Assembly: GCA_005502805.1 (NCBI GenBank)
Contig: SCMY01000004.1
Span: 310,001 to 374,000 of the forward strand
Length of the DNA stretch: 64,000 bases
Source of the DNA: Rhizobiales bacterium 2SD
GTDB taxonomy: Bacteria > Pseudomonadota > Alphaproteobacteria > Rhizobiales > Beijerinckiaceae
Reading direction: 5' to 3'
A program made the translations under genes and the position numbers. Positions 8,365 to 10,568 of the stretch are shown here, in pieces. Under the pieces are notes generated by a model. The model had not been told where the DNA came from. It worked only from the letters and a program-made list of their open reading frames with translations, and did no database searches. Each line of letters opens with the position of its first letter. Position 1 is the first letter of the stretch.

Positions 8365-8667
8365 ATGCGCCCGCCCGCCGCCCCAGCCACAGCCAGACCG
8401 CCGGCCCTGCCCCGGCTGCGCGGCTTCGTGGCGGCGCTTGCCGGGTTCATTGCGGTCCTCGCGCTCGCGCTGCTCGCAGACCAGTTCCTGCGCTCGCTCG
8501 GCCTGCCGCCGCCGGCAGCCCAGCCGATGCCGGAGCTTGGCCGCCAGGCGCTCGCGGTCTGGCTGCGGGCAGGCTGCCTGCTGCTCGGCAGCCTGCTCGC
8601 GAAGGCCGCCCTCGCTAGAGCCCGTTCCAATCAGCTTGCATCGCAAGCTGATTGGAACGGGCTCTAA
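8365..8667 (+). CDS. Small hypothetical membrane protein whose end is encoded by a repeat
   Basis: About 100 residues from the ATG at 8365: a Pro/Ala-rich start, one or two hydrophobic stretches (FVAALAGFIAVLALALLADQFL, split near 26-47; then LLLGSLLAKAALA) and an odd hydrophilic tail. The last 16 or so codons and the stop lie inside a perfect 24-bp inverted repeat (8616-8666), so the C-terminus appears to have been rewritten by insertion of that repeat. I do not recognise a family. Gene status rests on a plausible membrane segment and high-GC codon pattern only. Confidence 0.42.
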   Translation: MRPPAAPATARPPALPRLRGFVAALAGFIAVLALALLADQFLRSLGLPPPAAQPMPELGRQALAVWLRAGCLLLGSLLAKAALARARSNQLASQADWNGL

Positions 8668-8728
8668 ACCCAAAGTGAGAGGCGGATTCACCGATCAGGC
8701 TGCTCCAGCCTGATCGGATCCGGCTCTA
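8616..8728. repeat. Hairpin-rich dispersed repeat, copy 1
   Basis: Starts with a perfect 24-bp inverted repeat (8616-8639 against 8643-8666, 3-nt loop), followed by a spacer and a second hairpin (8691-8701 CCGATCAGGCT against 8707-8717), and ends with GATCCGGCTCTAG. The same order of elements recurs in the same orientation at 10325-10437, on the other side of the binding-protein gene. It supplies the stop codon and last codons of the small gene at 8365 and the TAG stop of the gene at 8726. Confidence 0.85.
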
Positions 8729-10312
8729 GACGCGCTTGACGTTCCAGAAGGTCGGGAAGCTCGGCAGCACGCCCGTGAGCTTGCGGCTGAACGCCGTCGG
8801 CTGGAAATACTGGCCGAGCGGCGCATAGGGCACGTCCTCGAAAGCCTGTTTCTGCAACTCGGCGGCGATCTTCTGCTTGGCCGGAAGGTCGGCGGCCTCC
8901 ATCCAGGCCTCGCGCAGCGCCTCGATCTTCGGCGCCACCGGCCAGCCGGGCCAGGCCGCCATGCCATTGCCGCGCAGCGAGATGTGGCCGACCGGGTCGA
9001 GGATGTCGATGCCGTTCCAGCCGGTGAAGAAGCAGTTCCAGCCGCCATTGCCGGGCGGCTCCTTGTTGGCCCGGCGCGTCACCACCGCGCCCCAGTCCAT
9101 CACCTGGTAGTCGACATTCATGCCGATGCGCTTCAGCATCTCGGCGCCGACCTCGCATTCGGCCTTGAGATTGGCGAGATCGGTGACGCCGAGCAGCACG
9201 ACCTTCTCGCCCTTGTAGCCGGCGGCCGCCAGCGCCTGCTTGACCTTGCCGATGTCGCGCGGCCCGTTCAGCACCTCCATGCCGGCATCGTTGGCCATCG
9301 GTGTCCCCGGTGGGAACAGGCCGACGCCGGTGCGCCAGAGCTCCTTGTCGGGCCCGCCGACCGCCTCCATGAACTCGGCCTGGTCGATCGCCATCAGCAC
9401 GGCGCGGCGGATCGCCGGATTGTCGAAGGGCGGGTGCAGATGGTTCATCCGCATGATCGCGATCGAGCCGGTCGTCTCCTTGATCGCGACCTCGAGCTTC
9501 GGGTCCTTGGCCAAGAGCGGCAGGATATCCGGCAGGGGCTGCTCGACCCAGTCGATCTCGCCGCTCTGCAAGGCCGCCGCCGCAGTCGCCGGGTCCGGCA
9601 AGGTGTGCCATTCGATCCGCTCGACATGGACGATTTTCGGCCCGGCGGTGCGGCCGGGCCTGCCGTCGCTGCGCGGCACGTAACCGGCGAACTTCTCGTA
9701 GACCGTCCGGCTTCCGGGCTGGCGCTCGCTCGCGATCAGGCGGAACGGCCCGCTGCCGATCACCTCGGTGATCTGCGTCGTCGCCTCGGTCTTCGCCAGG
9801 CGCTCCGGCATGATCACCGGCACCGACGCCGTCATCTTGGCGAGGGCGTCCGGCAGCAGCGGAAACGCCTTCTTCAGGCGAAAACGCAAGGTCTTGTCGT
9901 CGGCCGCAGCGAGCTCGTCGGTCTGCGCCATCAGCGTCTGGCCGAAGGCATCGCGCTTGCCCCAGCGGGTCAGGCTGGCGACGCAGTCCTTCGCCAGTAC
10001 AGGCGTCCCGTCGTGGAATTTGAGGCCTTCGCGCAGCTTGATCGTCCACGTCTTGCCGTCGGCCTCGGCCAGCGCGCCTTCCGCCATTTGCGGCTGGGCC
10101 TTGTAGCTCTCGTCCTGGCCGAACAGCGTGTCGTAGGCGAGAAAGGCGTGATTGCGGGTGACGGTCGCCGTCGTCCAGATCGGGTCGACGACGGCAAGAT
10201 CGCCCTGCGGCACGAACTTGATCACGTTCTTGTCGGCCCCGCGGCCGATATTGGGTTTGCTGACCGCGATGGCGGCAGCCGTGCCTGCGATGAAAGCGCG
10301 ACGTGTCGGCAT
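8726..10312 (-). CDS. ABC transporter substrate-binding protein, family 5 (peptide/nickel type), Tat signal
   Basis: 528 residues from the ATG at 10312; in-frame codons further upstream belong to a repeat. The N-terminus MPTRRAFIAGTAAAIAVSK carries a twin-arginine pattern. The rest is a DppA/OppA-like SBP_bac_5 protein: LAYDTLFGQDE, then the family signature region WTIKLREGLKFHDGTPVLAKDCVASLTRW, and YQVMDWGAVVTRRANK in the second lobe. Proteins of this type deliver peptides or other small molecules to ABC permeases, but no permease or ATPase gene is adjacent, so it is a stand-alone receptor. It is bracketed by two copies of a hairpin repeat, which may reflect local mobility. Confidence 0.9.
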   Translation of the reverse strand: MPTRRAFIAGTAAAIAVSKPNIGRGADKNVIKFVPQGDLAVVDPIWTTATVTRNHAFLAYDTLFGQDESYKAQPQMAEGALAEADGKTWTIKLREGLKFHDGTPVLAKDCVASLTRWGKRDAFGQTLMAQTDELAAADDKTLRFRLKKAFPLLPDALAKMTASVPVIMPERLAKTEATTQITEVIGSGPFRLIASERQPGSRTVYEKFAGYVPRSDGRPGRTAGPKIVHVERIEWHTLPDPATAAAALQSGEIDWVEQPLPDILPLLAKDPKLEVAIKETTGSIAIMRMNHLHPPFDNPAIRRAVLMAIDQAEFMEAVGGPDKELWRTGVGLFPPGTPMANDAGMEVLNGPRDIGKVKQALAAAGYKGEKVVLLGVTDLANLKAECEVGAEMLKRIGMNVDYQVMDWGAVVTRRANKEPPGNGGWNCFFTGWNGIDILDPVGHISLRGNGMAAWPGWPVAPKIEALREAWMEAADLPAKQKIAAELQKQAFEDVPYAPLGQYFQPTAFSRKLTGVLPSFPTFWNVKRV

Positions 10313-10324
10313 TTCAGGCTCCCT

Positions 10325-10437
10325 GGAGCCCGTTCCGATCAGCTTGCACCGCAAGCCGATAGGCAAACGGTCTCCAAACTAAAAGGAAGAGACGGATTCA
10401 CCGATCAGATTGGAACAACCTGATCGGATCCGGCTCT
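10325..10437. repeat. Hairpin-rich dispersed repeat, copy 2
   Basis: Diverged second copy of the element at 8616-8728, same orientation. It begins GGAGCCCGTTCCGATCAGC, has a degenerate first hairpin, then the shared GACGGATTCACCGATCAG, a second hairpin (10401-10408 against 10420-10427) and the shared end CTGATCGGATCCGGCTCT. It lies just upstream of the binding-protein start (10312) and so occupies that gene's leader or promoter region. The remaining stretch to 10568 shows no further gene or clear signal. Confidence 0.8.
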
Positions 10438-10568
10438 GCAGCAGGGCGTCGATCCGGGATGGCGAGCCCTGACGATACGGCGGGCGTCAGGCAACCAGCA
10501 TGCCAGCGGCCGGTCAAGCCGGCCGGTTGCGCACGGGAAAGCGAACGGTGAGCTGTTCCACGCCCAGG

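Follow-up and report, generated by a model that had tools for sequence, protein, structure and literature searches.

In the 64,000-nucleotide stretch of the Rhizobiales bacterium 2SD genome analysed here (the window), a gene for the SBP_bac_5 binding protein of an ATP-binding cassette (ABC) transporter lies between two copies of a short repeat. This raises the question of what the repeat is, how it came to lie on both sides of the gene and whether it has moved the gene. The repeat is probably a non-autonomous miniature inverted-repeat transposable element (MITE) of the IS630 (Tc1/mariner-like) group of insertion sequences (IS), on which an IS630-type transposase would act in trans. The gene between the copies is a bystander and not cargo.

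Two copies of a two-hairpin element in the window

Two two-hairpin copies in the same orientation around the binding-protein gene, as in the original prediction, were confirmed as ~110-bp elements by covariance-model matches at 8616-8729 and 10324-10439. Each copy, c1 and c2, consists of two hairpins (H1 and H2) with a short linker between them, and terminal inverted repeats are present (GAGCCCGTTCCGATCAG / GAGCCGGATCCGATCAG, read inward from both ends). Ungapped direct-repeat blocks of c1 and c2 displayed 82% identity over 72 nt and 87% over 45 nt. In a BLAST search of the own genome, c1 itself was recovered with an E-value of 2.5e-79 and five others including c2 with E-values of 1.5e-30 to 2.4e-20, which makes the similarity more than chance. 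The inverted repeat described for c1 is indeed present, with perfect arms of 24 bp at 8616-8639 and 8643-8666 and a loop of 3 nt between them. RNA folding on the plus strand gave z = -13.2 for c1, for which a very stable hairpin had been expected, and z = -5.8 for c2. A plasmid search with c1 as query gave no match. The copies and their parts are located as follows.

8618..8726, plus strand: element copy c1, core GAGCC...GGCTC, 109 bp; flanked by TA at positions 8616-8617 and 8727-8728, each inside a CTAG; the site is occupied in the window and vacant in all nine close relatives.
8618..8664, plus strand: hairpin H1 of c1; extended by the TA flank it forms a perfect palindrome of 24 bp (8616-8666); the outer end resembles an IS630 3' end.
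8679..8726, plus strand: hairpin H2 of c1; the outer end, read on the minus strand, resembles the IS630 5' end.
8685..8689, no strand assigned: GATTC, a CcrM-type GANTC site of c1 at position 38 from the H2 end.
10326..10436, plus strand: element copy c2, core GAGCC...GGCTC, 111 bp; TG flanks at 10324-10325 and 10437-10438.
10326..10374, plus strand: hairpin H1 of c2, imperfect and bulged, from folding and the alignment of copies.
10389..10436, plus strand: hairpin H2 of c2, from folding and the alignment of copies.
10395..10399, no strand assigned: GATTC (GANTC) site of c2, from the sequence.

The element belongs to a dispersed family

The genome-wide count that the original prediction had called for gave seven full copies in the own genome (6.27 Mb) at E ≤ 3.3e-17, and weaker or partial matches lie, for example, at C3:151240, C22:246775, C6:110492 and C27:84027. 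The covariance model was built from seven own-genome copies. It matched 46 of 61 genomes of the genus, the own one included, with 0 to 60 matches listed per genome; 60 candidates were scored per genome and a full copy often matched on both strands, and these match counts are incomplete and are not copy numbers. Across the order, matches, many of them weak, were obtained in 34 of 297 genomes and 21 of 123 genera. An exact 20-base pattern retrieved 112 stretches from named genomes. Among the 80 of them that were listed, 62 belong to Bosea or Boseaceae, and the 18 other loci come from Methylobacterium, Rhodomicrobium, Azorhizobium, Xanthobacter, Aquabacter and one cyanobacterium. Inspection by eye identified both arms in 14 of the 19 stretches from these 18 loci, with a different H1 sequence; the cyanobacterial stretch (L281) is not element-like. 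The repeat is a short, dispersed element without a transposase.

Empty sites and target duplication

Nine close relatives (G003, G005, G007, G014, G029, G036, G048, G050 and G059) are 90-93% identical over the binding-protein gene and have the same gene order. Empty sites, another check proposed with the original prediction, were found in them: c1 is absent from all nine and c2 from three, with the flanks intact. The empty c1 site reads ..CG-CTAG-ACGC.. in seven relatives, CTAGG in one and TTAG in one. At the c2 site, five relatives harbor an intact copy, three have none (G003, G005, G036) and one (G048) has a half copy. In this half copy (L102) the second hairpin alone is left and the first is lost, indicating that decay in place can give rise to half copies. 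The gene also occurs in six more distant genomes (G001, G008, G013, G020, G023 and G033), and in the loci fetched from these no element match adjoins it. We propose that c1 and c2 are separate insertions and that c2 is the older one; c1 occurs only here among the ten genomes compared.

Joined flanks of 17 further sites (18 had been selected, L142 was lost to a boundary rule, and some joins are off by a few bases) were searched in ten genomes, and all 17 gave at least one unbroken match across the junction. When 12 of these sites were checked base by base, eight (L042, L043, L069, L136, L137, L146, L155 and L181) turned out to be exactly two bases shorter in at least one relative. The cleanest pair is a filled gggcTA-GAGCC..GGCTC-TAgccg and an empty gggcTAgccg, the empty one lying in the own genome. 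Flanking dinucleotides were counted in 68 copies, left after the boundary rule had dropped 8 of 76 matches (7 of 76 in another count). On the left side TA occurs 32 times and TG 13 times, on the right side TA 32, TC 11 and TG 9 times, and 18 copies have TA on both sides. Insertion of the element thus duplicates a 2-bp target, which is most often TA but can also be TG.

Other modes of insertion were considered and abandoned. Single-strand (IS605-like) insertion without target duplication had been suggested by CTAG at both ends and was dropped once more empty sites proved two bases shorter. A 4-bp CTAG duplication, suggested by c1 alone, did not agree with L145, L148 and L173, which have no four-base repeat across their sides. 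Targeting of stop codons was not supported either: the 60 insertion sites include 8 that overlap with a predicted stop codon, compared with 6 of 73 YTAR sites in the window, which is no clear excess. The 60 distinct sites, obtained after removal of shared sites and short flanks, comprise 45 between predicted genes and 15 inside predicted reading frames, with gene calls that are crude (c1 was classed as tandem and c2 as inside a reading frame, against our own reading of both). For 24 of them a predicted stop codon is no more than 30 nt away. Of the 73 YTAR sites in the window 27 are intergenic, and the surviving copies thus lean to intergenic DNA, which is expected for any mobile element. The 60 stretches fetched are the top of the genus match list and biased to intact, model-fitting copies. 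The absence of further copies together with a position conserved in all relatives had been named as the outcome that would speak against mobility; both the additional copies and the variable positions were found, and the mobile-element reading therefore survives.

The ends of the element resemble those of IS630 elements

IS630-family (PF13358) elements were gathered from 7 genomes of the genus and 119 of the family, and their ends were called by mutual inversion and TA flanks only, without reference to the repeat. A clear end pair was present in 17 of the 37 loci, and 13 of these 17 begin with GAGC at both ends and are flanked by CTA or TTA. The two ends agree best with each other in L244. The element ends most often read TA-GAGCC and share TA and GAGC with most of the clear-ended IS630 elements. 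At best, 21 of 26 bases agree between a typical H1 end and the 3' end of an IS630 element of G007 (L223, for which no 5' end was found). Among the IS 5' ends the best is that of L246, which has 20 of 29 bases in common with an H2 end of the variant with GANTC in the loop. The GAGC-type IS630 elements of Alphaproteobacteria (e.g. L220, L222, L236, L242-L246) have TA flanks and GAGC ends as in the element, and in 19 of 20 of them the 5' end has GANTC at position 21; with ~1.04-1.09 kb they encode a DDE_3 transposase, which the element lacks. Dispersed copies, empty sites, 2-bp target duplication and IS630-like ends all bear out the MITE-like character that the original prediction had offered as one of two possibilities. 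In the mechanism that we envisage, a GAGC-type IS630 transposase would act on the element in trans. H1 would be derived from the IS 3' end and H2 from the 5' end carrying the GANTC site, each of these ends being folded back on a partial inverted copy.

Elements of this kind are known in general, and the published parallel is RUP of Streptococcus pneumoniae, a MITE related to IS630-Spn1 (PMC2229807, PMC3049150). RUP is described as 107 bp long, present in many copies, with TA as target, IS630-family-like ends and the same proposed way of moving. It differs in host phylum and IS, and no GANTC feature is mentioned for it in the descriptions cited (PMC2229807, PMC3049150).

Several observations weigh against the assignment to IS630. 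Our confidence is lowered by the lack of co-occurrence of helper and element and by the fact that no more than 8 of the 12 inspected sites are shorter by exactly two bases. The other four of the 12 have further small junction changes: L039 is three bases shorter, L147 has another small change besides a miscalled boundary, and further changes make L141 and L154 unreadable. Fifty of the 68 copies are without TA on both sides, which we read as decay or as the use of other target dinucleotides. Identity past GAGC is modest, with a mean of 7.3 of the next 17 bases compared with 5.2 at GAGC sites without a preceding TA. The own genome contains no intact IS630 element but one partial DDE_3 match with a 3'-end remnant, G029 and G059 gave no IS630 match though both are rich in element matches, and only L220 and L222 among the IS630 loci of the genus have both ends. 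Abundance of IS630 and of the element is uncoupled, as illustrated by G041 with 15 IS630 matches and no element match, and by G076 and G068 of the same bacterial family, which have IS630 and no element match. It may be that the helper was lost or that it acts from another place. Moreover, PF13340 (IS5/IS427) transposases can also duplicate TA, and the helper search covered PF13358.

One IS630 element (L235 in G129) has a near-perfect hairpin (TAGAGCCCGTTCGGTGAAC-TCCC-GTTCACCGAACGGGCTTTA) adjoining its left end, which looks as if a single-hairpin MITE had landed on the IS end or formed there.

Relation to other alphaproteobacterial repeats

The repeat appears to be an IS630-type MITE with an architecture like that of the CcrM-associated intergenic repeats (CIR). 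CIR repeats reportedly go back to Chen and Shapiro 2003. They are described from Caulobacter, Brucella and other Alphaproteobacteria as ~110 bp long with two long inverted-repeat arms and a linker, as is the element, and both have a conserved GANTC and TA at the termini (PMC2229807). For CIR, GANTC is described as lying at or partly in a terminal loop (PMC2229807); in 19 of 66 element copies it lies in the H2 loop region. However, the most conserved GANTC of the element (55 of 66) is located in the H2 stem, unlike in CIR, and the likeness between the two is by description only. In the account of a 2007 review, CIR repeats have no terminal inverted repeat, their target duplication is unknown, the mechanism of their mobility is unascertained and they do not lie inside genes (PMC2229807). 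The element, in contrast, has inverted ends (GAGCC/GGCTC) and a 2-bp duplication at empty sites. For a CIR-like case, a target duplication and polymorphic empty sites are thereby at hand, together with a family of candidate helpers. The rhizobial Rhizobium-specific intergenic mosaic element (RIME) also has a two-palindrome layout. Bru-RS of Brucella is described as an intergenic stem-loop repeat of 103-105 bp, from related bacteria and short like the element (PMC2267715). The resemblance of RIME and Bru-RS to the element might serve as a lead. New here are target- and empty-site evidence for the two-armed alphaproteobacterial type, its connection with IS630 elements of the GAGC type and the GANTC that is fixed at position 21 of the latter.

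GANTC sites in IS630 ends and in the element

Sixteen IS630 elements were chosen for their GAGC ends among 35 loci, GAGC itself having been tested in the separate end calling of 37 loci. The end on the transposase side has GANTC at position 21 in 15 of them and at position 28 in L220, and all 16 have further GANTC at 46-70. The 16 x 85 end bases contain 44 GANTC, compared with a mean of 4.7 and a maximum of 13 in 2000 mononucleotide shuffles. GANTC is present in 4 of the 16 3' ends and amounts to 0.05 per 85 bases in the interior. In a phylum-wide set of 27 loci, whose ends were called at a lower score, four are GAGC-ended; these four share the order or class of the window, and each has GANTC at position 21. 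None of the 20 loci from outside the class has GAGC at both ends, and none of the 18 with called ends (12 with a clear inverted repeat, 6 weak) has GANTC at 21. At this position of the 5' end it was also missing in three further loci of the class or order (weak ends) and in four non-GAGC loci of the family. In sum, GANTC is found at position 21 in 19 of 20 GAGC-type IS630 elements, which are related by descent and do not represent 20 independent cases.

GANTC occurs in 64 of 66 full element copies (66 of the 68 were kept for this count), 55 times at position 38 from the H2 end and 19 times at position 21; the copies were gathered with a model containing GATTC, and the way they were chosen accounts for part of this conservation. 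Both c1 and c2 have it at position 38 only. The own genome encodes a CcrM homologue (G000:C25) with PF01555 and RAMA, which matches the NCBIfam CcrM model with an E-value of 3.1e-185 and 615 bits, below the strict cut-off of 830.

Dam methylation of transposase promoters is described to limit IS10, IS50 and IS903 to the time after replication (PMC9296519). By analogy, we infer that transposition of the element may be gated by CcrM and thus by the cell cycle. We tentatively consider, with more doubt than confidence, that GAGC-type IS630 elements and two-armed intergenic repeats (the CIR type, possibly RIME and Bru-RS) constitute one cell-cycle-gated transposition system with the GANTC at position 21 as a CcrM switch. 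Transposase expression or end binding would then be favoured only while GANTC is hemimethylated behind the replication fork, comparable to Dam sites. If true, gating would explain both what CIR repeats are and why CcrM sites are present in them. The fixed GANTC in the helper ends makes CcrM control of transposition directly testable, in parallel to Dam control in enterobacteria. A literature search for IS630 or transposition with GANTC or CcrM found no such claim in the texts retrieved, which is not proof of none in print.

Hairpin perfection and paired changes

In most copies each hairpin is composed of an outer arm (GAGCC..), an inner arm (GAGAC..) and a 3-nt bulge, and H1 usually contains a mismatch as well. 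In H1 of c1, however, the 3' arm is the exact complement of the 5' arm, whereas the similar copy L069 retains bulge and mismatch. An unbroken stem of at least 19 pairs was present in 2 of 66 copies, c1 (H1) and L186 (H2). By eye, the bulge is also lost in H2 of L144, H1 of L187 and, in Rhodomicrobium, H2 of L284 and H1 of L337. The hairpin of L284 (Rhodomicrobium sp. Az07) has both arms of the inner type (GAGACGGATTCACC...GGTGAATCCGTCTC), and the inner arm can thus also be the template for perfection. In E. coli, quasipalindrome template switching is described to perfect imperfect hairpins as in c1 (PMC7202029). The perfect palindrome of c1 looks like such a quasipalindrome correction, in which an imperfect hairpin would have been perfected by template switching.

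In an alignment of 67 copies, 24 of 44 pairs are changed on both sides compared with 8.0 in shuffles, and 97.4% of helix cells are paired; the alignment was fitted to the model structure and the statistics ignore the relatedness of copies. Changes on both sides make up 119 cells and those on one side 37 (sum of the per-pair table). The excess of two-sided changes fits copying of arms at the DNA level at least as well as selection on RNA.

Alternative explanations

The other possibility raised by the original prediction was a repetitive extragenic palindromic (REP) element moved by a REP-associated tyrosine transposase (RAYT, a Y1 transposase), with each hairpin as a REP and the pair as a REPIN. 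The layout of two imperfect palindromes in inverted orientation with one bulge each is REPIN-like, and RAYT-family (PF01797) matches exist in 5 of 21 genomes searched. They are absent, though, from the own genome and the nine close relatives, six of which (G007, G014, G029, G048, G050 and G059) each have more than 50 element matches, and none of the eight matched loci elsewhere has the element. The RAYT hypothesis was dropped on these grounds and is highly improbable. Y1 transposases are not known to make a 2-bp target duplication, which was observed in insertions of the element. REPs are characterised by a GTAG tag at one end of a 20-40 bp unit (PMC3733652), while the element has no GTAG and mostly ends in TN-GAGCC, TA being most frequent. 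Like REPs and bacterial interspersed mosaic elements (BIMEs) with RAYTs, it is a repeated imperfect palindrome mostly outside genes (PMC3733652, PMC2817692), but it differs in the lack of GTAG and of an associated RAYT, in the 2-bp target duplication and in the lower number of copies. Composite transposition, in which the binding-protein gene would have left the copies behind as direct repeats when it was duplicated or transposed, is almost certainly wrong. Two copies in the same orientation do flank the gene; nevertheless it has the same place in 9 of 9 relatives without c1, three of which have neither copy, and the six more distant genomes have the gene without an element match beside it in the fetched loci. 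The empty sites at a conserved gene position refute this reading, and the suggestion that the element had helped to move or duplicate the gene is not supported.

More serious, albeit unlikely, is a MITE moved by another TA-duplicating transposase, e.g. an IS5/IS427-group element like Brucella IS711. The target of IS711 is described as YTAR with TA duplicated, and the frequent CTAG target of the element fits YTAR (PMC2266754). Such a transposase is also favoured by the lack of intact IS630 helpers in the own genome and in two others with many element matches. What ties the element to IS630, in contrast, is that the two have the GAGC terminus and GANTC at position 21 in common. The element end against which IS427-type ends would be compared is GAGCCNGNTCCGATCAG. 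Retention of the element as a functional RNA or DNA (terminator, mRNA stabiliser or regulator) for the sake of its hairpins is very improbable. Paired helices with many two-sided changes, the 45 of 60 sites between predicted genes and the 24 of 60 near a predicted stop are in line with it. On the other hand, positions are not conserved among close relatives, no Rfam family matched in the 64-kb window, and the predominance of two-sided changes (119) over one-sided ones (37) is what DNA-level copying of arms would give. No terminator-like site was found at c1 or c2; the single one, at 10231-10250, lies at neither copy, and a terminator role was rejected. An IS630-type MITE remains the preferred explanation.

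Effects on the neighbouring genes

Two genes adjoin c1, which fits our own reading of the gene layout and the original prediction of a site at two convergent gene ends.

8726..10312, minus strand: gene for the SBP_bac_5 binding protein of an ABC transporter, bracketed by c1 and c2; the ATG at 10312 is taken as its start; Pfam E 7.7e-69.
8365..8667, plus strand: small conserved gene, C-terminus replaced and extended by c1; start read as ATG at 8365.

As predicted, c1 alters the C-terminus and stop of the small gene, whose frame here continues into the element. The gene is open and conserved in all nine relatives, where it ends in RRA* (eight) or RRV* (one), including ARRA*, ARRV*, VRRA* and GARRA*. 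The stop codon of the binding-protein gene had been attributed to the element, but its TAG (minus strand, 8726-8728) is the ancestral target, as the empty c1 sites read CTAG in 8 of 9 relatives and TTAG in one. It survives the insertion because the target TA is duplicated. The second copy is upstream of the binding-protein gene as expected: c2 lies just 5' of the start (ATG at 10312), and AGGGAG, which may be the ribosome site of this gene, adjoins c2. The gene is situated between the same neighbours in all nine relatives, elements present or not. We propose that the effects on the neighbours, a new C-terminus of the small gene and a hairpin in the 5' untranslated region upstream of the binding-protein start, are by-products of insertion.

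Variant copies

Another pair of copies bracketing DNA was noticed in a relative, where two copies in opposite orientation lie ~735 bp apart (L149, G007:C1:134461-137576). A RAYT/IS200-like cluster of three Y1-transposase matches within ~1 kb (G020:C1:3105870-3106888; L129, L134 and L135) is without the element. A one-armed form is represented in the own genome by a solo hairpin with CTAG flanks (L057, C27:84027), which combines an H1 outer arm with an H2-type inner arm. In hybrids from relatives (L150:5-131, L176:2986-3112) and from the own genome (L051, C3:151240), one hairpin is swapped for a different one containing ..GGAAAAGTG..CGGTTTTCC.. or ..GCGAAAAAGTGGGAACCGGTTTTTCGC... These swapped hairpins are, we assume, reminiscent of rhizobial repeats. 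The arms of the element seem to be modular, to judge from such variants. In plasmids of Pararhizobium and Terrarubrum there are parts that the L150 stretch matches at 80-89%.

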